DNA from: Nitrospirota bacterium | GTDB taxonomy: Bacteria > Nitrospirota > Nitrospiria > Nitrospirales > UBA8639 | NCBI GenBank assembly: GCA_027623995.1 | Contig: JAQBUF010000032.1 | Coordinates: forward strand, 1-36,161 | Length of the DNA stretch: 36,161 nucleotides | Direction of reading: 5' to 3' | Part shown: piece by piece, positions 2,655 through 34,341 of the stretch | Layout: the number at the start of each line of letters is the position of its first letter | How positions within the stretch are numbered: position 1 is the first letter of the stretch | Made by a program: the position numbers and the translations under genes | Notes under the pieces: model-generated | Told to the model about the DNA's origin: nothing | What the model saw: only the letters and a program-made list of their open reading frames with translations | Database searches by the model: none

Positions 2655-4787
2655 ATGCGCCTCAAACGTTGGCTTCTTTTTGCCCCACTCCTGTTAACGG
2701 TATTTCTTCTCCAGTCCTATTTCTGGGTTCCCACGTACGAACACCAAGCCACCGGTAATCCCAAACGCCTGGTCACCTACATTCAAGGGTCTTCTGGTGA
2801 TGCGAAGGTGCTCAATCCGATCCTCAATGCGGATTCCGCCAGCTCGAATATTGTCGGTCATGTGTTTGAAGGGTTGTTGGATTTGGATGCAGACCTTAAC
2901 CTTCGTGGACGTTTGGCCACAGAGTGGGCCATTTCTGAAAAAGCCTATTTATTTGTGAGTGCATCGAATCGATTTCCGGATGGTACAGAGGTCACAGGAA
3001 CTCAGCTCATCAATCGAATCCGAGCTGCGCTCAAAGAAAAATCATTTTCCACGCTTGCCAAAAATATCAAAGATATCCAAGTCTTGCCTCCTGAAAAGTT
3101 GACTCAAAAAATCTCAATGACAGAAAAAGGGGAAGATGGCAAACCCAAACGCGGGGAGGTTGAAATTTCATTCAACATGCCGGCGCGCGTGGTATTTTCC
3201 TTACACCAGGTGGATCAAGATTTTTTTACGCAGTTGATGCCGGTGATTGGTGATCGGTATCTGGAAAATTTTCCCTACGATCAGCACCTTAATTTACCCG
3301 AGGGCATACAGCCAGAAATTGAAACCCAAATCCACGCTCAATTGGCAGATCTTTTTCCTGTGGCGGAGCACAATCCCATTATCGATTTTCAATTACGAAA
3401 AGGCGTTCGGTTTCATGATGGGCATGAATTTGATGTGGGTGATGTGAAGTTTACCTACGAAGCGATTATGAATCCGAAGAATCTTTCACCTCGTACGTCT
3501 GACTTTGAACCGATTAAATTCGTCAAAGTGTTAGACACGCATCGTGTGCGAGTTGTCTATAAGCGATTGTTTTCCCCTGCGATTAATGCCTGGATGATGG
3601 GGATTTTGCCTGAGCACTTACTGAATGCTGAGGCGATGCAACAAGAAATGGAGAAACGGGAGTTATCGGACGCTGCACGTGCGGCCTTTGGAATGCGGGA
3701 CAGCCAATTTAATCGCGCTCCGGTCGGCAGTGGAAGTTATCAATTTGTTGAATGGCAGAGTGATGAGTTTATTCACTTGACTCGATTCGAACAATATTGG
3801 GAAGGCCCAGCCGAATATCACGAATTTTTTATGCGCATCATTCCGGATCTATTCACCCAAGAAGTGGAGTTCCATGCCGGGGCGTTAGATGACTATGGTG
3901 CGCAGCCGCATCAGGTGTCTCGCTATAGAGAAGATGCGCAATATCAAAATTTTTCAAGTTTGGGATTTGGGTATAGCTATATCGGCTACAATAATCGTCG
4001 TCCCTTGTTTGCGGACCCTGAAGTAAGAAAAGCCTTAGGCATGGCGATCAATGTCGGGGATTTCATTAAGTACCTCTTGTATGGCGAGGGGGAACGTATT
4101 ACCGGTCCCTATCCAAAGAATACCCAATGGTATGATCCGAGCGTCCCTCCGTTACCCTATGACCCCGAGGGAGCCAAAGCGATATTGATGAGCCTAGGCT
4201 GGACGCTTAATGCCGATGGGTGGTTAGAAAAAGATGGAAAAGTTTTCGAATTTAATCTGATTACGAATAACGGAAATCCAATTCGAAAAAACATTATGAC
4301 GATCGCGCAAAATGCGTGGAAAAAAATTGGGGTGAAATGTAATACGCAGGTCTTTGAATGGGCCGTGTTTCTTAAGGACTTTGTGAATACAGCACAGTTT
4401 GATGCCGTCGTGTTGGGCTGGAGCATGGGGGTGGATCCTGATTTATTTCAATTGTGGCATTCGAGTGAGGCGGGTCCGCAACAATTAAATTTTGTGGGAT
4501 ATAACAATCCCAAGTCAGACGATCTGATCGTGAGAATTCGACAGGAATATGACGTAAAAAGACAGCGCGAAATGACGCACCAATTGCACCAACAAATACA
4601 TGAAGACCAACCCTATACCTTTTTGTATGCCCCGTTAGGCACCAAGGTGTTGGATAAAAAAATTGTGCTCGTTCAGCGTGATGAAGACGGGAATGAAACC
4701 TATGAAAAAATTTATCCCACCAAATCAGGGAACATTGAATTTTATTTTAATAAGTGGCGAAAGCTCGAAATGACGCCAGACTTTTAA
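2655..4787 (+). CDS. Peptide ABC transporter, periplasmic substrate-binding protein (SBP_bac_5)
   Basis: Binds peptides (or another family-5 ligand) in the periplasm and delivers them to the permease encoded just downstream. The N-terminus has an Arg/Lys start and a hydrophobic stretch (about 6-25) acting as a signal peptide or anchor. There is no lipobox cysteine, unlike many lipoprotein family members. The family signature LRKGVRFHDGHEFDVGDVKF is at about residues 243-262, and the C-terminal lobe contains the usual VLGWSMGVDPD segment. At 710 residues it is longer than the usual 500-600. The extra length is mostly N-terminal: residues about 75-240 include a second, diverged signature-like stretch (NRFPDGTEVTG at about 104) and a glycine/lysine-rich loop. 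First gene of a five-gene operon. No strong ribosome binding site is visible before the ATG. The exact ligand is not predictable. Confidence 0.92.
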   Translation: MRLKRWLLFAPLLLTVFLLQSYFWVPTYEHQATGNPKRLVTYIQGSSGDAKVLNPILNADSASSNIVGHVFEGLLDLDADLNLRGRLATEWAISEKAYLFVSASNRFPDGTEVTGTQLINRIRAALKEKSFSTLAKNIKDIQVLPPEKLTQKISMTEKGEDGKPKRGEVEISFNMPARVVFSLHQVDQDFFTQLMPVIGDRYLENFPYDQHLNLPEGIQPEIETQIHAQLADLFPVAEHNPIIDFQLRKGVRFHDGHEFDVGDVKFTYEAIMNPKNLSPRTSDFEPIKFVKVLDTHRVRVVYKRLFSPAINAWMMGILPEHLLNAEAMQQEMEKRELSDAARAAFGMRDSQFNRAPVGSGSYQFVEWQSDEFIHLTRFEQYWEGPAEYHEFFMRIIPDLFTQEVEFHAGALDDYGAQPHQVSRYREDAQYQNFSSLGFGYSYIGYNNRRPLFADPEVRKALGMAINVGDFIKYLLYGEGERITGPYPKNTQWYDPSVPPLPYDPEGAKAILMSLGWTLNADGWLEKDGKVFEFNLITNNGNPIRKNIMTIAQNAWKKIGVKCNTQVFEWAVFLKDFVNTAQFDAVVLGWSMGVDPDLFQLWHSSEAGPQQLNFVGYNNPKSDDLIVRIRQEYDVKRQREMTHQLHQQIHEDQPYTFLYAPLGTKVLDKKIVLVQRDEDGNETYEKIYPTKSGNIEFYFNKWRKLEMTPDF

Positions 4788-18465: not shown

Positions 18466-19317
18466 ATGGAACAAATTGAAATACCCTATGAGGTAAAGCT
18501 CGAGGCCTTTACCGGGCCTCTCGATCTCTTGCTGCACCTCATTCGCAAGCATGAAATCGATATCTACGACATACCCGTTTCATTGATCACCCAACAATAT
18601 ATTGAGTACCTCCAGCTCATGAAGGAGCTAAACTTGTCCTTTGCGGGAGATTTTTTGGTGATGGCCGCCACGCTGATCCAAATCAAGTCCCGAATGTTAC
18701 TGCCCCAAGAGGTAGAAGCTATTTCTGAGGAGGAAGAGGGCGAGGATCCCCGGAGTGAACTCGTTCGGCGGTTGGTGGAATACCAGCAGTTCAAAGAGGT
18801 GGCAGGGCAATTATCAGATCGGGAAAAATTCTGGCGAGATATGTTTCAACGTGAATCCATTCATGTTCCTCAGGTCAAGGAAGTCCTGATGGACGAAGTC
18901 AGCATGTTTGATTTGCTGGAAGCCTTGCAAGAGGTCGTCCTTCGCACCGAAACCCAAGTGGTCGTGGACATTACTCCCGATACCGTGACGGTACAGGATC
19001 GGATCAATGGGATTGTCGAGCGATTGGAAGTGCATCCCGATCTCACCTTCACAGAATTGTTTGATGATGCATCGACGCGATTGGATGTGATTGTCACGTT
19101 CTTAGCGTTACTCGAACTTGTGCGCATGAAGTTGGTTCGTATTTTTCAGGGCGACCTTTTTGGTCCTATCCGTATCTCTCGAACATTTTTGCCAGAGACT
19201 GGGGTAGACGACGCCGAACGTTCAACGGAATCTGACGGACCAGATACCATGAATCATGGAGGATTGAATGGAAACGGAAACGGAAATGGAAACGGGAATG
19301 GAAACGGACACCACTGA
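18466..19317 (+). CDS. scpA: Segregation and condensation protein A
   Basis: ScpA is the kleisin that, with ScpB, bridges SMC dimers in chromosome condensation. The N-terminal SMC-neck-binding signature is clear: EAFTGPLDLLLHLIRKHEIDIYDIPVSLITQQYIEYL (residues about 13-49, quoted as the family block), then the helix around ATLIQIKSRMLLP. The C-terminal winged helix (TFTELFDDASTRLDVIVTFLALLELVRMKLV, about 197-227) binds the SMC head. The protein ends in an unusual Gly-Asn run coded by a GGAAAC repeat and overlaps scpB by 50 bases. AGGA at 18450 is a distant ribosome binding site for the ATG at 18466. Length 283 is slightly above the family average because of the tail. Confidence 0.95.
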   Translation: MEQIEIPYEVKLEAFTGPLDLLLHLIRKHEIDIYDIPVSLITQQYIEYLQLMKELNLSFAGDFLVMAATLIQIKSRMLLPQEVEAISEEEEGEDPRSELVRRLVEYQQFKEVAGQLSDREKFWRDMFQRESIHVPQVKEVLMDEVSMFDLLEALQEVVLRTETQVVVDITPDTVTVQDRINGIVERLEVHPDLTFTELFDDASTRLDVIVTFLALLELVRMKLVRIFQGDLFGPIRISRTFLPETGVDDAERSTESDGPDTMNHGGLNGNGNGNGNGNGNGHH

Positions 19318-20284
19318 AAAAGAATTCACGATTGAATCGGTGCCAGAAGATATGGTGGTGACGGAAGCTATGGGTTTGATGCCCAATCATCCCTCTTCCA
19401 TTGAGGAGGCTTCTATCGAGGAAGCCGATCCGGTCACTGATTCGTTAGATGAGCAGGAGTTGAAGAGTATTATCGAATCCTTACTCTATGTGTCGCAGGA
19501 ACCATTGACGGTGGAAAAAGTGACCTCGATTTTGGCCGGTCCACCCAAAGTGGTCGTTCACAATGCGATGCGCGCCCTGCAACACGATTACGATCAAGAC
19601 GGGCGCGGTTTACACATCGTCGAAGTGGCCGGAGGATTTTCTATGGTCACGCGTCCTGACTGTGCTCCATGGATTACCCGACTACACAAAGTGAAAGCGT
19701 CCGCCAAAGTCTCGCGTTCTGCGTTGGAAACCTTGGCGATTATTGCCTATAAGCAGCCGATGGTTCGAGCGGACATCGAGCAAATTCGTGGCGTGGAAAC
19801 GTCAGGCGTGTTGCGCACCTTGTTGGATCAAAAACTCATCCGCATGGTAGGACGAAAAGATATTCCTGGCCGTCCAATCATGTACGGAACGAGTAAGGTG
19901 TTTCTCCAGCGGTTTGGCTTACGCGATCTTCGAGACTTGCCCCCACTGCGTGAGTTTAAGGATTTGGGAGCAGGGGAACCGCAAGATTTATTCAGCGACG
20001 ATACGATGGCGATGTTCGAAGAGAGCAATGCCCCTGAGCCTGAAGTGGTTCTCTCCGAAGACATGATTTCTGAAGCGGCGCTTTCTGAAGAAGATCTTTC
20101 TGAGGAAGTCATGTCTGATGAAGTCATGTCTGATGAAGTCCTTACCACTGAAGGTCTTTCAGCCGAAATGGATTCAGTCGAGTTGGATTCAGGCGAAATA
20201 AATTTAGTTGAAATGAATTCAGAAGAAATACATTCAGAAGAAATGCTTTCAGAAGAGACAACGTCCGAAGATCCTATTGAATAG
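19268..20284 (+). CDS. scpB: Segregation and condensation protein B with extended acidic termini
   Basis: ScpB dimers bind the ScpA linker in the SMC complex. The two winged-helix domains occupy about residues 63-220: ELKSIIESLLYVSQEPLTVEKV, then the family signature VSRSALETLAIIAYKQPMVRADIEQIRG and GRPIMYGTSKVFLQRFGL. The gene starts inside scpA at the ATG at 19268, with GGAGG at 19258-19262 five bases upstream. The first 60 residues and the last about 95 are extra. The tail is a run of acidic pentad-like repeats (SEED, SEEV, MSDEV, NSEE, HSEE), partly from a tandem 15-bp DNA repeat near 20110-20138. ScpB proteins are normally under 250 residues; this one has 338. Confidence 0.94.
   Translation: METETEMETGMETDTTEKEFTIESVPEDMVVTEAMGLMPNHPSSIEEASIEEADPVTDSLDEQELKSIIESLLYVSQEPLTVEKVTSILAGPPKVVVHNAMRALQHDYDQDGRGLHIVEVAGGFSMVTRPDCAPWITRLHKVKASAKVSRSALETLAIIAYKQPMVRADIEQIRGVETSGVLRTLLDQKLIRMVGRKDIPGRPIMYGTSKVFLQRFGLRDLRDLPPLREFKDLGAGEPQDLFSDDTMAMFEESNAPEPEVVLSEDMISEAALSEEDLSEEVMSDEVMSDEVLTTEGLSAEMDSVELDSGEINLVEMNSEEIHSEEMLSEETTSEDPIE
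19270..19305 (+). repeat. Hexanucleotide microsatellite in the scpA-scpB overlap
   Basis: Six GGAAAC-like units (GGAAAC, GGAAAC, GGAAAT, GGAAAC, GGGAAT, GGAAAC). The run encodes Gly-Asn dipeptides at the end of ScpA and Glu-Thr/Glu-Met dipeptides at the start of ScpB. Gain or loss of whole units keeps both frames. Confidence 0.85.
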
Positions 20285-26064: not shown

Positions 26065-26290
26065 TGAATGCGGCGGAGCTTCTGTCCCGAATCGACTTTT
26101 TTGGTGAGGGCTGTTTGAGTCCTTCGGGAAGGACCCAGGATAAACTCCGCGAGTTCGTGAGCCATCTTATTCGGGGCGAAGGTGGAGGGACCCCCTTGGG
26201 GCCGCACACGGGCGGAAATGGTTTTGGGTCCTTTTGCCGAAACAAAAGGGACTCGTCGGCAGGGGCGAAACCCGGCATCTAATCATTCCC
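26065..26290 (+). repeat. Dispersed palindromic repeat, copy E
   Basis: Near-complete member: CCCGAATCGACTTTTTTGG, GTTTGAG, GAGCCATCTTATTCGGGG, ACCCCCTTGGGGCCGCACAC, GGGCGGAAATGG, hairpin CCTTTTGCCGAAACAAAAGG, then GGGGCGAAACCCGGCATCTAA. An extra ~36 bp, with the hairpin GTCCTTC-GG-GAAGGAC, is inserted relative to copy C after GTTTGAG. The right end abuts the brnTA promoter region. Confidence 0.8.
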
Positions 26291-26332
26291 CCGAAAAACC
26301 TTTCAATCAAACGGATGGATTCCAAACCCATC

Positions 26333-26361
26333 TTGACCTGCGCCATAACCATACATACAAT
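26333..26361 (+). promoter_or_regulatory. Predicted sigma-70 promoter of brnTA (leaderless)
   Basis: TTGACC at 26333-26338 and TACAAT at 26356-26361 are exactly 17 bases apart. The brnT ATG begins only six bases after the -10 box, so the transcript is predicted to start at or next to the ATG. No ribosome binding site exists. An ATGTACAT palindrome (26360-26367) overlapping the start is a candidate operator for the BrnA repressor. Confidence 0.65.
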
Positions 26362-26367
26362 GTACAT

Positions 26368-26661
26368 ATGGATGAGCTGCGTTTCGAGTGGGACAGCCGC
26401 AAAGAAAAGTCCAATATTAAAAAACATGGTGTGTCCTTCGAAGAGGCCCGCACAATTTTTTATGATGAGAAAGCCCTACAATTTTCCGACCCAGACCACT
26501 CAGTAGATGAAGAGCGGTTCATCCTACTCGGAATGAGTTTTAAATTGCGCACCCTCGTGGTGTGTCACTGTGTCCGTGACCATGAACATGTGATTCGAAT
26601 TATTTCAGCCAGGAAAGCGGACTCAAATGAACAACAGGAGTATTGGAGGTCAACATCATGA
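26368..26661 (+). CDS. brnT: BrnT-type ribonuclease toxin
   Basis: A 97-residue toxin of the BrnT family (RelE-like fold, ribosome-independent RNase in characterised members). The diagnostic N-terminus RFEWDSRKEKSNIKKHGVSF and EEARTIFYDEKAL are complete. So are ERFILLGMS and the C-terminal RIISARKADSNEQQEYW. The start ATG at 26368 matches the family's usual N-terminus even though there is no ribosome binding site. Its stop overlaps the ATG of the antitoxin gene (ATGA). Toxin-before-antitoxin order is normal for brnTA. Confidence 0.93.
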   Translation: MDELRFEWDSRKEKSNIKKHGVSFEEARTIFYDEKALQFSDPDHSVDEERFILLGMSFKLRTLVVCHCVRDHEHVIRIISARKADSNEQQEYWRSTS

Positions 26662-27185: not shown

Positions 27186-27236
27186 GTGTTTTACCATTTG
27201 AATATCGGCTGAGTTTTTCTAGAGGAGTGATCTCGC

Positions 27237-27506
27237 ATGAAAGTGACAGATTCTGAACGGCTGGAAATGTTATATGATCGGTTTTGTGAAGTGTGTATGG
27301 TTGAGAAGGAAGTGTGGTTGGAGATTTATATGCCTCCGCAGGTGGAGAAGGGGCTTATCATGACCAATGTTATGGAGAAGTATGATGTCGTCATTGATGA
27401 CGAACAAATTGAAGAAACCTTGGATGCCAATATTCCACATGGGAAGGCTGCCTTTAAGGCTGCCGTCCAAGAGTATAAGGGCCATATTAGTTTCATTAAA
27501 AAGTAA
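27237..27506 (+). CDS. Conserved-looking small protein of unknown function
   Basis: 89 residues, mostly helical by eye, acidic, with a distinctive middle EKYDVVIDDEQIEETLDANI and the ending YKGHISFIKK. No signal peptide, membrane helix or catalytic motif is seen. AGGAG at 27223-27227 is nine bases before the ATG. A strong intrinsic terminator follows 30 bases after the stop and a promoter candidate lies upstream, so it appears to be a complete single-gene transcription unit. This makes it likely real even though the family is not recognised. Confidence 0.75.
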   Translation: MKVTDSERLEMLYDRFCEVCMVEKEVWLEIYMPPQVEKGLIMTNVMEKYDVVIDDEQIEETLDANIPHGKAAFKAAVQEYKGHISFIKK

Positions 27507-27707: not shown

Positions 27708-28328
27708 ATGAAAACGCAGCGACAGTATTCACGAGCATGGCCAGCGATTGAGCCTCCTGAACTCAAGGGAGCCTATGTTGGATTTTGGGCCAGGTTTTTG
27801 GCTTCTCTTTTAGATACGATTCTCATCGCCATCGTCACCTACCCGTTTCTCATTGCCGCCTATGGATGGGCCTATCTGGAATCCTGGATATTCGTCGAAG
27901 GCCCTCTTGATTTTATTCTTTCGTGGATGTTTCCTGCCGCAGGGATTATCGGGTTTTGGGTGTATTACTCAGCGACACCAGGGAAAATGGCCATCGGTGC
28001 CAAGATTGTGGATGCGGCGACAGGCCAACAGCCGACTCAGTGGCAGCTCGCGAAACGGTATATGGGATATTTCTTTTCTTCGATCTTTTTGTGTTGGGGA
28101 TTTATTCATGTCGCGTTTAATCCCAGAAAGCAGGGCTGGCACGATAAGTTTGCAAAGACGGTTGTGGTGTATAGCAACAGGGTTCATCAACCCGAGATGC
28201 CTATAAAACCCAAAGCCCTATTCCCATCGGCGAAACAATCCTTGCCTTTGCATGGCTCACTTCCTGTCGCGGTCAAGAGACCGCGTAAAGAGGAAGTCTT
28301 CATCGGAACTTCACAAGAAGGTGTCTGA
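27708..28328 (+). CDS. RDD-family membrane protein
   Basis: A 206-residue inner-membrane protein. The RDD signature is present as GFWARFLASLLDTILIAIV (Arg and Asp in the first helix, about 27-45). It is followed by a second helix, FPAAGIIGFWVYYSATPGKMAIGAKIVDAATG, and a third around YFFSSIFLCWGFIHVAF. The QGWHDKFAKTVVV end of the domain is also there. The last 50 residues are a basic cytoplasmic tail. RDD proteins are of varied or unknown function, some linked to ion transport. The ATG at 27708 has no strong ribosome binding site. A secreted Sel1 protein gene starts 52 bases downstream and may share the transcript. Confidence 0.88.
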   Translation: MKTQRQYSRAWPAIEPPELKGAYVGFWARFLASLLDTILIAIVTYPFLIAAYGWAYLESWIFVEGPLDFILSWMFPAAGIIGFWVYYSATPGKMAIGAKIVDAATGQQPTQWQLAKRYMGYFFSSIFLCWGFIHVAFNPRKQGWHDKFAKTVVVYSNRVHQPEMPIKPKALFPSAKQSLPLHGSLPVAVKRPRKEEVFIGTSQEGV

Positions 28329-28380
28329 CTCTGGACTTTTCCCTATTTATATTCGAATGAAATTTAAAGGCCTTCTGCGC

Positions 28381-29769
28381 ATGACCATGCAAAATCTATT
28401 TCCAACCATACTACCTAGAGGCCTTCAACAGGCCATGCTCTCGTTGGCCATGGTTTTTGTGGTGGGGGCGTGCGTGATAAGCCCTTCTCTGGCCTTGGCT
28501 GAGAATAACACGTCGGCTTTAGCCGATGAGTTTTTTGCCAAAGGGCTTGAGTATTTTTGGGCGGAAGACATTCCCCAACATTACGAAGAAGCGTTTGTCT
28601 GGCTATCAAAAGCCGCTGAATATGGGCATCCACGGGCACAAGCGATGCAGGCGGATATGTTGGCGAATGGGTTGGGGACTGTGATTGATCGTGAAAAGGC
28701 CTTTGCTTTGGCCAATGCTGCCGCTGAAAGTGGTGATGTATTCGGAAGATTTCTTCTTGGGAAATATTTCTATTGGGGAATTGGAACAGCCTCGAATGAA
28801 GAACAAGCCAAACATATATTTTCTCAGATGTTTTTTGAATTAGAACAACAAGCTGAGTCTGGTGATGGTTTAGCCCAACATGGCTTAGGATGGATGTATG
28901 CCACTCTAAGTACGGTAACGAAGGATTATCAGAAAGCACATCATTGGTATGAAAAAGCTGCGATTCAAGGATATGCTGTCGCGCAAAATAATTTAGCCAT
29001 CATGTTTTGCAATGGTGAAGGTGTGAGACAGAATGCAAGAATTAAAAACCTTTGGTACCGCCGAGCCGCAAAACAAGGCTATCCAATTGCTCAATATAAC
29101 CTTGCCCTTTCTCTAGGCGCAGAAGGAGATCTTGAGGGAAAGTATCGTCTGCTTTTGGAGTCCGCTGATCGGAATTATAAATCAGCTCAGGCCAAACTCG
29201 GTTGGATTTTTGAAGAGGGGAAGGGGCAACCTGTTGATTTGAAAAGCGCGGTGGCTTTGTATCGAAAAGCGGCTGCCCAGGGCCATCAATGGGCGCAACA
29301 TCATTTGGGCCGGTTGTATCAAAAGGGAAAAGGCGTTCCCCAAGATTATCATGAGGCTATGAAATGGTACCGAGTGGCTGCGGAGAACGGGTATGCCAGT
29401 GGTATGGCCAATGTTGGTCACCTTTTTGAAGCTGGTCTCGGCGTAGAAAAAAACTATGTCGAAGCCCGCTCGTGGTACGAACGAGGTGCTGAACAGGGCA
29501 ACACGTATTCGGAGGCCCGCCTAGGGTATTTATATATGAACGGGTTTGGCGTGGACCAAGATTATGACAAAGCCACGGAGTGGTTACAGAAGGCTTCTCG
29601 GGGAGGAAATGAGTGGGCTCGGTATGGAATGGGGCTCGTTCATGAAAAACAGCGGCAATATTCCCAGGCGATTCGTTGGTATCTTTGGGCGGCAATTAAG
29701 GGGTATGATTTTGGTTTCAGGCGAGCGGTGTATTTGGTGGTGATGTACCCTGTTTCCTTTTGGACCTAG
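28381..29769 (+). CDS. Secreted Sel1-repeat protein
   Basis: 462 residues. A signal peptide (QQAMLSLAMVFVVGACVISP then SLALAEN, cleavage after ALA around residue 40) directs it to the periplasm. Then come about ten Sel1 repeats of the form A..WY.KAA.QG...AQ..LG..Y..G.GV. Clear ones are HWYEKAAIQGYAVAQNNLAI, ALYRKAAAQGHQWAQHHLGR and SWYERGAEQGNTYSEARLGY. The ATG at 28381 is preferred because AAAGG lies ten bases upstream and it gives a proper signal peptide; in-frame starts further upstream overlap the RDD gene or lack a ribosome binding site. Probable scaffold or adaptor in the envelope. It is much longer than the Sel1 protein at 23895 and is not an obvious recent copy of it. Confidence 0.88.
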   Translation: MTMQNLFPTILPRGLQQAMLSLAMVFVVGACVISPSLALAENNTSALADEFFAKGLEYFWAEDIPQHYEEAFVWLSKAAEYGHPRAQAMQADMLANGLGTVIDREKAFALANAAAESGDVFGRFLLGKYFYWGIGTASNEEQAKHIFSQMFFELEQQAESGDGLAQHGLGWMYATLSTVTKDYQKAHHWYEKAAIQGYAVAQNNLAIMFCNGEGVRQNARIKNLWYRRAAKQGYPIAQYNLALSLGAEGDLEGKYRLLLESADRNYKSAQAKLGWIFEEGKGQPVDLKSAVALYRKAAAQGHQWAQHHLGRLYQKGKGVPQDYHEAMKWYRVAAENGYASGMANVGHLFEAGLGVEKNYVEARSWYERGAEQGNTYSEARLGYLYMNGFGVDQDYDKATEWLQKASRGGNEWARYGMGLVHEKQRQYSQAIRWYLWAAIKGYDFGFRRAVYLVVMYPVSFWT

Positions 29770-29797: not shown

Positions 29798-30937
29798 TTA
29801 TTCAATCTTTCCATTTTTCCCATCGTCTCCATGGCAACGATGAGTGATCTGTTGCCAGTCGTCTAGCGGGAACAAGCTATGACTTGGTTGCTCTGTGGCG
29901 TGAGCTTGTTTTCGAAGGATGTCCACTCGATCGCCTGCCGTGGGATGTGTCGAGAGATACCGCCACATGGGATCGAAATTTTTCTCGCCATGCTGCTCCT
30001 TAAGGTATTCAAAAAAACTCAGCATGCCCTCAGGGTTAATCTTGGCTGCCAGTAACAGACCCATCCCTTCACGATCAGCCTCTTCTTCAGCGGACCGACT
30101 ATACGATAATGTTTGGAGCACATGTGCGCCTTCGAGCACAAAGGTCATGATGCCACTGATATCTCCAGTCAGCGCTCCGATGATCAACCCAAGCGTCATA
30201 TTTTGTACGAGTAATCGCATTCCATGTCGTTGGAGGACATGCTGAATTTCATGGGCCAGCACGCCAGTGAGTTCTTCGGGAGTCTCCGTGTTTTCGAGCA
30301 GCCCTCGAAAAATGATGATGTGTCCCCCAGGGAGCGCCATGGCATTAAGAATGGGCTGATCAACGATGGCCAGGCGAAAGGTGTATGGGACCGTTTCTAC
30401 GGTGGACACCAAGGCTTGGATTAAAGAATTGGCTTTCTCTAGGAGCTGTGGGTCTAAACACCGTGCCTCGGATGGGGCAATCTCTTCGACCAAAGCATCG
30501 CCGAGGTGTGTTTCCCAAGAGTAGGGAATGAGAGTGGTGAGCGGGCCAGAAAGAGCAGGGACGCCTTTGGCATACACGATCCAAATGAGGGGGATGGCGA
30601 AGACTCCAGCGGCGATGGTGAGCCAGAGGCGACGAGTGCGAGTGCGCGGGTTATGAAGATGCCTGACGTCGTTGGGAGCCAAACCATGAAGTGCTGTTAA
30701 AAATTTGGCATCCTGTACTACTAACAGATCGTGGTGAGCATTCTTTCGTTCGAGCCGAACTTCCTCGCCTGCATAGTTCCCTTGAGTTTGGTGAATGTCT
30801 GCATATGCCCAAAGAAGAGGCTGTTCGGAGATACCATGAATGGTGAGTCCTACTGGGGCCATGACGATGAAGACCTGATGCGCAATAGGGCTGTGGCCAT
30901 CGAAGTATTGCCCATGCCACGTGGAAGACGCTGTCAT
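29798..30937 (-). CDS. M48-family zinc metalloprotease with N-terminal extra domain and membrane anchor
   Basis: 379 residues. Residues about 1-80 form a small beta-rich domain (RYFDG-like start, then LTIHGISEQPLLWAYADI and VRLERKNAHHDLLVVQD). One membrane helix follows at about 104-124. The M48 catalytic domain has the zinc motif HEIQH at 229-233, the third-ligand motif EEEAD at 284-288, and LATHP-like LSTHPTAGDRVDIL near the end. The protease domain is therefore likely periplasmic, acting on envelope proteins as a quality-control enzyme. It lies 79 bases downstream of the DUF898 gene on the same strand, so the two may form an operon. This pairing of DUF898 with M48 is, as I recall, common. 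Confidence 0.92.
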   Translation of the reverse strand: MTASSTWHGQYFDGHSPIAHQVFIVMAPVGLTIHGISEQPLLWAYADIHQTQGNYAGEEVRLERKNAHHDLLVVQDAKFLTALHGLAPNDVRHLHNPRTRTRRLWLTIAAGVFAIPLIWIVYAKGVPALSGPLTTLIPYSWETHLGDALVEEIAPSEARCLDPQLLEKANSLIQALVSTVETVPYTFRLAIVDQPILNAMALPGGHIIIFRGLLENTETPEELTGVLAHEIQHVLQRHGMRLLVQNMTLGLIIGALTGDISGIMTFVLEGAHVLQTLSYSRSAEEEADREGMGLLLAAKINPEGMLSFFEYLKEQHGEKNFDPMWRYLSTHPTAGDRVDILRKQAHATEQPSHSLFPLDDWQQITHRCHGDDGKNGKIE

Positions 30938-31016: not shown

Positions 31017-33632
31017 TTATCCCAGATCAAATCCCGTGTCAAAGAACCCAGCGAGTTCTTCTCCCATGGGTGAGGCCGTGTTGGCTTCTTGAACGACTTG
31101 CTTGAGGTCCAATGGACCTTGGAGTCCCACATAAAAATACAAGAACTGCAAATTCCTGGTCTGAACCCACGGCCATGCCAAGCCTAATGTGAAGACCAAG
31201 AGGAACAGGTTCGTCAATCTCAATTCACACAAGTCTCTGCCTGTCATCGTCGCTTGAAAACGCGCATAGCCAAAGGTGGTGTGGCTCCACATGTAGCGTT
31301 GCCGAGCGGCTTGGAACCAAAACCACAAGCCAAACACAAAGGGAACTACCATCGTGATAATCCCGACGGTCGTCCAAAACACCACGTCGATGACTTGAGT
31401 CGGATCGATTTTTCCGGAGAGGAACGAGGTAGCCAACAGTACAGCCTCTGCGGTGACCAGACCAAGAATGAGCACGCGGAATGCCTTGAAATAAATATTC
31501 CCTAATTCTTTCCCTTCTCCGGTAAAGCCAAAGACGCGGCTTCCAAAATGAGTCCCTGACGAGAGAAAGGCTCGTTTTGCGTTATCGAAGATCGGGTAAT
31601 AGATCCCCAAGGTCAGAATGGAAAAGAGGGTACCCTTGAGGTAGAGGGTTATAAAGTCTTTCGCAGAATGACGGAATGAAAAGTAAATGCCCCGCCATGA
31701 AGTGCGGCTCATGCGATAGCGATGCGAGCCTACGATCGCAATTGGAAGAAAGCATAAGAGGAGCAGACCGGCGACGATGTTCACACCCCATTGAAGGGCG
31801 GCATTGGATTGAAGCGCGCCCGCATAGTTGAGGGCGGTATAAGGAATACCAAAGATCGCCATGGCCTTCATCCATCCTTTGAACAACTCCCCACCCGTTC
31901 CATGGAAGGCTAAGCGAGCCCCAGCAAACCGTGTTTGACTGTGAAGGTAGCGACGAATTTTGACCCGACCCCAAAAGGAATACACCCCAAAGGTGAGCAA
32001 CGTCAGCAAGCTATTCATCGTGAACATGCCAAACAACGAACCCCCCGTGCCTGAGAAGAAGGGGCGTCTGAAGCGATCGGGCGCCTCTCCAGAATGTGGC
32101 GATGTGGCATCAGGAGTAGGAGGTTGAGGCTCGGGTGGTGCGGGATCCAAGTCCTGAGTCTCTGAAGCCGTTGGTGCTTCAGCGGTACCTGTCGAAACTT
32201 CGGAAGGGGGTGGACTGTCATTACCACCTTTGGCTTCAGTGGCTGACCGGCGTTGTTCTTCAATGGCCTGTTCGTCTTGAAGGATCGCAGCGACGTCATC
32301 AGCAATTTCCATGACTGCGTCTATAGAACTCTGGGCGGCGATGGCCGCCAAGGGAAGTTCAGGTGGTGGTGCCTTGGCAGCGGATGACGCCATTGATGCC
32401 GCGAGCATTTCTTCTGGTGACGGTGCCGCAGCTTCTGGATCTTCACCGATTCGTGTGGGTTTCCATTCAGTCGGTGGTGGGTCTGCCTGAGGTGGCGCCG
32501 CCGCCGCCGTGTCGCTCGGCCAGTTCATCGTAACCGAATCTTGAGACGTGGTTTCGATGTCTGCCGAAGGAGTCTCCTCGGTGGATTGAGCTTCGATAGG
32601 CGATGACTCAGGCTCCCCTTGTGTGGTCACGTTTGCAGCAGCGGTCTCAATGTGTTCAGGCTGCGTATCGGATGAACGTGGTTGCGTTTCTTCACCAAGA
32701 ACGTCGGCCCAATCATTTTCCATATCCTCATCAGAGTCGAGATTGGAATCTGATGTTTCAGTGAACGCTGATGGAGACGCGCCGGCTTGGGGTTCGATGT
32801 GTTCATCTGAGGCAACAGTGGTGGCAGGATTCGGCGTGCTCTCTATCTGTTCCTGTTCTTCGAGGGCGGCGGCCCATTCATCAGCGAGGTCGGCTTCAGA
32901 CGCGGGTGGCTCTTCCTCCACAATGGCTTGTATGGGGGGCGCGGCGGTGTCGGTGGCTTCGGGCGCATTGGCGGCTATCGCGGTCGCGGCGGAATCTTCC
33001 TGCGTTTGTTCGGCCATAGCGGCAGCCCAGTCATTGTCCAGGTCATAAGCTTCAGTCGTGGGCGGCTCTTCCGTGACCGCGGCTTCGGAGGCATTGGCGA
33101 CCGTTTCAGTGACGGCGGCTTCTTCCTCGGTTTGTTCAGCCAGCGCGGCGGCCCATTCATCTTCCAAGGAGGCTTCAGTCGCGGGTGGTTCTTCTGTGAC
33201 GGTGGCTGGTGCTGCTATTGGTGCAGCAGCTTCGGTTTCAGGGGGATCTTCATTTGCTCCGGCGGCATCTGCCTCGTCTTGTTCAGCTAAGGCGGCTGCC
33301 CATTCATCGGCCAAGGCAGCTTCAGTTGTGGGTGGCTCTTCTGTGATATCGGCTGGCGCTGGTGCTGGCGCTGCAGCTTCTGCCACACCAGCGGATTCTT
33401 CTTGATCTTGTTCGGCCAAGGCAGCGGCCCATTCATCGTCCAAGGAGGCTTCGGATGCGGGAGGCGCTTCAGTGACCACGGCGGTGTCAGCCTCATCTTG
33501 CTCAGCCAAGGCAGCGGCCCATTCATCGTCCAGGGAGACTTCACTCGAAGTGGATAATTGTTCTTCAGGTGGATCTTCGGTCTGCTGTTTGGTGGAAGAT
33601 GGGCGATCGATATTTTCGGTGTTGGTGCTCAT
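31017..33632 (-). CDS. DUF898 (YjgN-family) membrane protein with a seven-fold DEWAAALAEQ repeat region
   Basis: 871 residues. About 1-530 is a disordered acidic, Ala/Glu/Pro/Thr-rich region. In it a unit EEPP.TEA..L.DEWAAALAEQ recurs seven times between about residues 30 and 310, the last two copies diverged. The C-terminal about 330 residues are the DUF898 domain: RFRRPFFSGTGGSLFGMF, TFGVYSFWGRVKIRRYLHSQ, FHGTGGELFKGW, then repeated helices and FTGEGKELGNIYFKAFRV, with six or more membrane spans. The start ATG at 33632 is chosen over an upstream TTG at 33647 because AGGA lies about 12 bases before it. Function unknown; the repeat region is probably a cytoplasmic multivalent binding tail. 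Confidence 0.88.
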   Translation of the reverse strand: MSTNTENIDRPSSTKQQTEDPPEEQLSTSSEVSLDDEWAAALAEQDEADTAVVTEAPPASEASLDDEWAAALAEQDQEESAGVAEAAAPAPAPADITEEPPTTEAALADEWAAALAEQDEADAAGANEDPPETEAAAPIAAPATVTEEPPATEASLEDEWAAALAEQTEEEAAVTETVANASEAAVTEEPPTTEAYDLDNDWAAAMAEQTQEDSAATAIAANAPEATDTAAPPIQAIVEEEPPASEADLADEWAAALEEQEQIESTPNPATTVASDEHIEPQAGASPSAFTETSDSNLDSDEDMENDWADVLGEETQPRSSDTQPEHIETAAANVTTQGEPESSPIEAQSTEETPSADIETTSQDSVTMNWPSDTAAAAPPQADPPPTEWKPTRIGEDPEAAAPSPEEMLAASMASSAAKAPPPELPLAAIAAQSSIDAVMEIADDVAAILQDEQAIEEQRRSATEAKGGNDSPPPSEVSTGTAEAPTASETQDLDPAPPEPQPPTPDATSPHSGEAPDRFRRPFFSGTGGSLFGMFTMNSLLTLLTFGVYSFWGRVKIRRYLHSQTRFAGARLAFHGTGGELFKGWMKAMAIFGIPYTALNYAGALQSNAALQWGVNIVAGLLLLCFLPIAIVGSHRYRMSRTSWRGIYFSFRHSAKDFITLYLKGTLFSILTLGIYYPIFDNAKRAFLSSGTHFGSRVFGFTGEGKELGNIYFKAFRVLILGLVTAEAVLLATSFLSGKIDPTQVIDVVFWTTVGIITMVVPFVFGLWFWFQAARQRYMWSHTTFGYARFQATMTGRDLCELRLTNLFLLVFTLGLAWPWVQTRNLQFLYFYVGLQGPLDLKQVVQEANTASPMGEELAGFFDTGFDLG

Positions 33633-34341
33633 GTCTCTCATCCTCAAGCTAGCCGCAAGTCAATTGGTGAAGAGAAGGTCTCCGAATGGGAAGTCCAATT
33701 ACTTCTTGGGCATTCGAAGTGTCGTCTAGTCGTTCTCTTCCCTGAAATTTGTCGGTGTTTAGACAGCAAAGCTTAAAGGGAACTGCGTAAGTGTGGAGGC
33801 GATTGATGGTTGGAGATCGAATGGGTCGTGGCTTCTTCGGTGGTAACCCTGTGATGGCATGGTGTCAAAATTTTTTACGTTGTCCATGGGTGCCAGCAGC
33901 GTACGTCCTATGACGTATCCTCCATCAGTTGAATACAACGTCGAATATTCTTCCCCTCCGGAAGGGATTCTCTCAAAACCCGCTCTAGGTCAAGGGATAC
34001 GAGCCATTTGCCTGTTCGCTTCTTTCAATTTGTTCGGTTCAGGCTCAACAGAAAAGTGCTCAGCGAAGTCTTTGTCTCCGTAATGAGAGACAACGCGAAA
34101 GATCTGGCTGTTGGAAAATTTGCCGGGTTGAATATGTCACAGTTCCTGGCCATTACCGTGACATACATTTTATTCCTTCATGATGTCGTTCTTTATGGTG
34201 ATGGCCCTGTAAAGTTTTTTTACACTTTTGAAAAATGCGTGTGAATATCTTGACGGGAAATTGCCGGATAATTTTAGCACGTTTTGTCGACTTCTTTTCC
34301 TATCCTTTCGGTCTTTAACTCTTGCTGCACCTCATTTCTTT
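33633..34341. other. Gene-free region
   Basis: About 700 bases between the divergently transcribed DUF898 gene and the PEP-CTERM gene. Short open frames (for example 33859-34083 and 34008-34244) have no ribosome binding site, no recognisable motif and protein-atypical composition. I see no RNA gene or long repeat. It ends at the sigma-54 promoter. Confidence 0.5.

Follow-up and report, generated by a model that had tools for sequence, protein, structure and literature searches.

A tandem tryptophan-motif array resembling the FliN N-terminal segment in the acidic tail of a Nitrospirota DUF898 membrane protein

The window (the whole 36,161 nt stretch of DNA that was analysed) belongs to a Nitrospirota genome (G000) of 3.13 Mb that is 99.7% complete. 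Its reverse strand carries the gene of a DUF898 membrane protein with a long N-terminal tail, in which a ten-residue peptide with a tryptophan (the W-motif) recurs, and downstream of it a gene for an M48 metallopeptidase. The features are listed below, with tryptophans numbered from the ATG at 33632.

31017..33632, reverse strand: DUF898 membrane protein gene, 872 aa from the ATG at 33632
32079..33632, reverse strand: acidic, low-complexity N-terminal tail, mostly disordered (518 aa; 124 D+E, 9 K+R)
33498..33527, reverse strand: W-motif copy 1, DEWAAALAEQ (W38)
33408..33437, reverse strand: W-motif copy 2, DEWAAALAEQ (W68)
33279..33308, reverse strand: W-motif copy 3, DEWAAALAEQ (W111)
33132..33161, reverse strand: W-motif copy 4, DEWAAALAEQ (W160)
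33006..33035, reverse strand: W-motif copy 5, NDWAAAMAEQ (W202)
32853..32882, reverse strand: W-motif copy 6, DEWAAALEEQ (W253)
32688..32717, reverse strand: W-motif copy 7, diverged, NDWADVLGEE (W308)
32220..32351, reverse strand: predicted helix, tail residues 428–471 (AlphaFold, pLDDT to about 90)
31050..32057, reverse strand: DUF898 (PF05987) membrane domain (Pfam, E 3e-75)
29798..30937, reverse strand: M48 metallopeptidase with a DUF7092-like N-terminus, conserved downstream neighbour (Pfam and family loci)

The open reading frame (31017–33647, reverse strand) would encode 876 aa from a TTG at 33647, but direct reading of the sequence shows a GAGG about 9 nt upstream of the ATG at 33632, making this ATG (872 aa) the likelier start. 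Residues 531–866 of the 876-aa product match DUF898 at 253.8 bits (curated cut-off 28), and Pfam finds no other domain in the full product: there is no FliMN_C domain, and neither the full-length protein nor the tail alone matches LysM or FimV. The tail is rich in alanine (22%), glutamate (16%), proline (11%) and threonine. Its acidic stretch of 518 residues, the lack of a signal peptide and the zinc-ribbon-like N-termini of relatives place it, by inference, on the cytoplasmic side. A search of genome contigs with the full-length protein found no related locus, and the papers found on DUF898 and YjgN report no function.

The DUF898–M48 pair is kept together across the family, and both the domain and the M48 neighbour are common to DUF898/YjgN proteins encoded beside M48 peptidases. 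Beyond the M48 gene, and convergent with the pair, lie genes on the forward strand (27708–29769) for an RDD membrane protein and a secreted Sel1-repeat protein (28252–29769), which are present there in G000 and G001 and absent from this position in the other family loci read. The Sel1-repeat protein begins with a signal-peptide-like segment and is probably periplasmic; it was set aside as a receptor for the repeated peptide, as the tail is expected to be cytoplasmic. A conserved protein of ~89 aa (27231–27503, forward strand; 59–81% identity), with no Pfam match, is encoded near DUF898–M48 in most family loci. The window also carries a BrnT-type toxin gene (26182–26661, forward strand; PF04365, E 1.6e-27), and tandem repeats of 15 bp and 30 bp (20084–20256) within an ORF at 19268–20284.

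The preliminary description reported DEWAAALAEQ repeats on a DUF898 membrane protein, and these proved to be real. There are six canonical copies (five DEWAAAL[AE]EQ and one NDWAAAMAEQ) and one diverged copy, and together they hold seven of the nine tryptophans of the tail. The period of 32–46 residues given there was too narrow, the distance from one tryptophan to the next being 30, 43, 49, 42, 51 and 55 residues, a wider and less regular spacing, and the longer unit EEPP.TEA..L is evident before copies 3–6 but not before the others. The consensus [DEN][DE]WA.[AV][LM].E[QE] matches the tail seven times, compared with a mean of 0.0001 matches in 20,000 composition-preserving shuffles, none of which reached two.

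A single-sequence AlphaFold model of the tail, made with no alignment (mean pLDDT 49.6), places a helix on each of the six canonical motifs and none on the diverged copy. When the helix pattern was shifted circularly along the tail, only 5 of 518 shifts covered all six as well. The separate helix predicted at residues 428–471 falls in a stretch that all three congeners conserve (PPEL.LAA.AA..SI...). The DUF898 domain, also modelled without an alignment, has a mean pLDDT of 45.8.

Three genomes of the genus were compared (G000, G001 and G002), one of them poor. A count of the motif across relatives, as the preliminary description had proposed, gave 7, 6 and 3 copies in these congeners and none in DUF898 proteins from the family's other genera, whose N-termini are either barely extended or form a low-complexity tail resembling a zinc ribbon. 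The array is therefore, on sequence comparison, a property of this genus and not of DUF898 proteins in general. A search of 396 genomes of the phylum with the motif pattern matched G000 only (G001 and G002 were outside the draw). The G001 orthologue, an open frame of 788 aa, has five copies of canonical form besides a diverged one; the G002 tail has two canonical copies and one diverged. Around 10660 of the G002 locus (L066), the tail ORF ends at the first DUF898 residues and is followed by unrelated polysaccharide-type genes; this break is perhaps an assembly chimera or a real truncation. The last copy has the form [ML]ENDWA.VL in all three species (ENDWAEVLEEQ in G001, ENDWAAVLEDQ in G002), suggesting that it is orthologous across them. 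The repeated unit is 114 bp long in G001 and 162 bp in G002, which suggests that the copies ahead of the last one were amplified separately in each lineage.

Comparison between the G000 copies gave a pS of 0.62 and a pN of 0.07 for the motif, against 0.63–0.67 and 0.36–0.46 for the flanks, i.e., a pN/pS of 0.12 compared with 0.56–0.68, and a motif pN that is 5–6 times below that of the linkers at equal pS. The G001 motif shows a pS of 0.40 and a pN of 0.00 (over the pairs of copies, synonymous differences add up to 26 and non-synonymous ones to none). Between G000 and G001, the motif has a pN of 0.03 and the downstream linker 0.50. The linkers cannot be aligned across the three congeners, whereas the motif is kept in all of them. 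Sequence correction between duplicated copies could reduce pS and pN together but would not reduce pN alone. With equal pS and low motif pN, these comparisons indicate that the peptide is under purifying selection while the linkers are little constrained, and a conserved peptide between drifting linkers is the pattern of an array of docking motifs (SLiMs).

The FliN N-terminal segment is a Pfam family of its own (FliN_N, PF16973) with a conserved tryptophan peptide. The N-tail of FliN (E. coli K-12 FliN, MDDLWAEALSEQ) has the same core, [DE][DE]WA.A[LM].EQ, that is found within the disordered DUF898 tail in six of the seven copies, and both tails are disordered, acidic and N-terminal to a folded domain. 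Many Pseudomonadota and Desulfovibrio-group species have two or three tandem copies in the FliN tail. The DUF898 protein differs in having six or seven copies on a multi-pass membrane protein that lacks FliMN_C, in a genome without FliM/FliN. Isolated W-motifs score 14.0–14.6 bits against FliN_N (E 0.03–0.05; curated cut-off 24), their leading Pfam matches being DUF802 (E 0.03) and FliN_N (E 0.05), and FliN_N is the sole Pfam match of the first 62 residues (E 0.03). A DUF802 similarity with E 0.0024 was below the DUF802 cut-off. At E ≤ 10, FliN_N is reported for pieces cut out of the G000 tail but not for the whole tail, and the G002 tail gives no match; the G001 orthologue reaches 24.2 bits (E 3e-5), above the cut-off. 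For reference, FliN of E. coli K-12 scores 74.6 bits and an Oceanospirillum FliN with three motifs 14.2 bits, so that the fit to the family of an isolated motif, or of the G001 orthologue, is comparable to that of certain genuine FliN sequences. A position-specific matrix trained on FliN scored 24.5–28.8 bits, compared with a shuffle maximum of 24.1, although this is partly circular, as the training sequences were collected with a related pattern.

When ~85,000 species were scanned for a tandem pair of motifs, with a pattern derived from the DUF898 protein and hence not forcing FliN as the answer, 40 loci were obtained: 36 FliN (2–3 N-terminal copies each), two HubP/FimV-like proteins and two Lysobacter proteins. 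In 21 genomes from these loci the single-motif pattern matched one gene per genome, and among 200 Pseudomonadota genomes it gave 14 matches besides the centre (nine FliN, two FliM and three by chance). The motif is thus rare outside C-ring and hub proteins. Two Pseudomonadota proteins (L137, 343–1668, reverse strand; L138, 1456–2682, forward strand) are FliM by Pfam, unmatched by FliN_N, and carry three tandem N-terminal W-motifs right before the EIDA.L segment. This segment of FliM binds CheY. The ~300-aa Lysobacter proteins (L090, 4535–5452, forward strand; L103, about 4400–4600, reverse strand) have two DWAAALEEQ sequences near the C-terminus; the L090 protein has no Pfam match, and FliN of both Lysobacter genomes lacks the motif. 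Acidic proteins on two haloarchaeal-virus-like contigs (L178, 4148–5929, and L179) carry two APEWAKALKEQQE repeats near the C-terminus; the peptide is a different one (PEWAKALKEQQ) and these matches were rejected, the repeats being similar in shape but probably unrelated.

The closest parallels in architecture are the HubP/FimV-like proteins of Succinivibrio (L155, 10961–13798, forward strand; five motifs) and Succinimonas (L154, 6610–9102, forward strand; at least five motifs, probably seven or more, part being masked). Like the DUF898 protein, they are membrane-anchored and bear five or more copies on a long, acidic cytoplasmic tail, and FliN in the same two genomes has one copy, compared with at least five on the hub protein. 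They differ in that their tail follows one TM helix and a periplasmic part of LysM type, whereas the DUF898 tail comes before its membrane domain. The landmarks of HubP/FimV, a LysM-type periplasmic domain and a C-terminal FimV TPR, are missing from the DUF898 protein. HubP partners are reported to bind mainly to the acidic cytosolic repeats of HubP (PMC8789113).

No FliM/FliN C-terminal domain (FliMN_C) was found in the 99.7% complete G000 genome, and no protein reaches the cut-off for FlhF, only Ffh/FtsY-level matches being seen; this species seems to be without a flagellum. FliMN_C and FlhF are present in G001 and G002, but FliN of these motile congeners has an N-tail that lacks the W-motif and does not match FliN_N. 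In this genus the motif therefore sits on DUF898, not on FliN, and persists after loss of the flagellum. FliM, FliN and FlhF were rejected as partners of the tail in G000. Two family relatives (L047 and L059) have FliN N-termini with a motif look-alike, DAEKEMMEALAQE, in which Met replaces Trp.

The preliminary description proposed a multivalent docking tail sharing the partner of the FliN segment. Conservation of the motif in congeners, purifying selection, the likeness to FliN_N and the membrane-anchored, by inference cytoplasmic, tail agree with this proposal; a partner in the flagellar C ring, or FlhF, does not, given their absence from G000 and the motif-less FliN of motile congeners. We consider it slightly better than an even chance that the tail is a selected, multivalent array of docking motifs using the code of the FliN tail, with a partner other than FliM, FliN or FlhF. 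The DUF898 domain would anchor at the inner membrane a chain ~518 residues long, disordered and acidic, that lies in the cytoplasm and displays six or seven 10-residue elements, each able to fold into a short helix whose one face carries W, A and L/M. Each motif might be a weak helical ligand, repetition would provide avidity, and the array may concentrate around DUF898 a soluble partner that is expected whether or not a species has flagella. A copy number (seven) far beyond chance, the selection on the copies, orthologous arrays of other number and period, the predominance of FliN and FliM among matches elsewhere, the parallel arrays of the Succinivibrionaceae hubs, with HubP partners reported to bind its acidic repeats (PMC8789113), and the helices predicted on all canonical motifs favour docking. 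Against it stand the whole G000 and G002 tails unmatched by FliN_N, the ready convergence of Ala/Glu-rich helical peptides, the low confidence of the single-sequence model, the motif-less FliN of the motile congeners, and the reported dispensability of the FliN tail in enterics (PMC6700473).

It is unlikely that the tail is an Ala/Glu/Pro-rich spacer grown by tandem duplication, without docking and with a chance likeness to FliN. Tandem amplification is plain, the composition is extremely biased and the motif is missing from DUF898 of other genera, as such a spacer would have it, but the low motif pN at equal pS and the retention of the motif in three species despite unalignable linkers argue for constraint on the peptide, and elsewhere the matches are C-ring and hub proteins rather than random spacers. 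There is a small chance that the W-helices bind each other, clustering DUF898 through a sticker-and-spacer tail with no need of an outside partner; the same self-association could aid the tails of highly multimeric C rings and polar hubs. This would explain the survival of the array in a genome without flagella, and fits the freely varying copy number and the ring or cluster proteins that are the other carriers. However, the motif is short and strongly acidic, with a low hydrophobic moment (0.16–0.18), all unfavourable for packing of like with like, and a generic sticker would not need selection as specific as that acting on the exact EQ end.

The disordered N-tail of FliN seems to tune affinity for CheY-P and is dispensable in enterics (PMC6700473), which raises the improbable alternative that the motif is a ligand of a CheY-like response regulator within the CheY-P control of the C ring, and in this genus ties a receiver protein to DUF898. 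Receiver domains occur without flagella, and in the two FliM proteins the motif directly precedes EIDA.L, but the published CheY-P site is the globular domain of FliN, with the tail merely modulating, and no receiver protein was found beside the DUF898 gene among the neighbours examined. A membrane-surface amphipathic helix was rejected as unlikely because the hydrophobic moment of the motif helix is too low.

Returning to the docking array, the amplification of the peptide on DUF898, where the genome lacks FliN, and its independent amplification on polar hubs suggest that its partner is not a C-ring component. In monotrichous species FlhG touches FliM and not FliN (PMC12826062), and none of the papers found names a binding partner for the disordered FliN segment or its tryptophan peptide. 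More tentatively, the FliN-tail peptide could be a portable code for docking, recognised by a non-flagellar protein, which FliN, some FliM, the Succinivibrionaceae hubs and DUF898 compete for or recruit, and which DUF898 keeps after the flagellum is lost. If so, a species without flagella offers a clean route to the partner of the FliN tail, and motif arrays are high-avidity natural baits for seeking it. For the DUF898/YjgN proteins, a docking array would provide, in one lineage, a first mechanism that can be put to the test.
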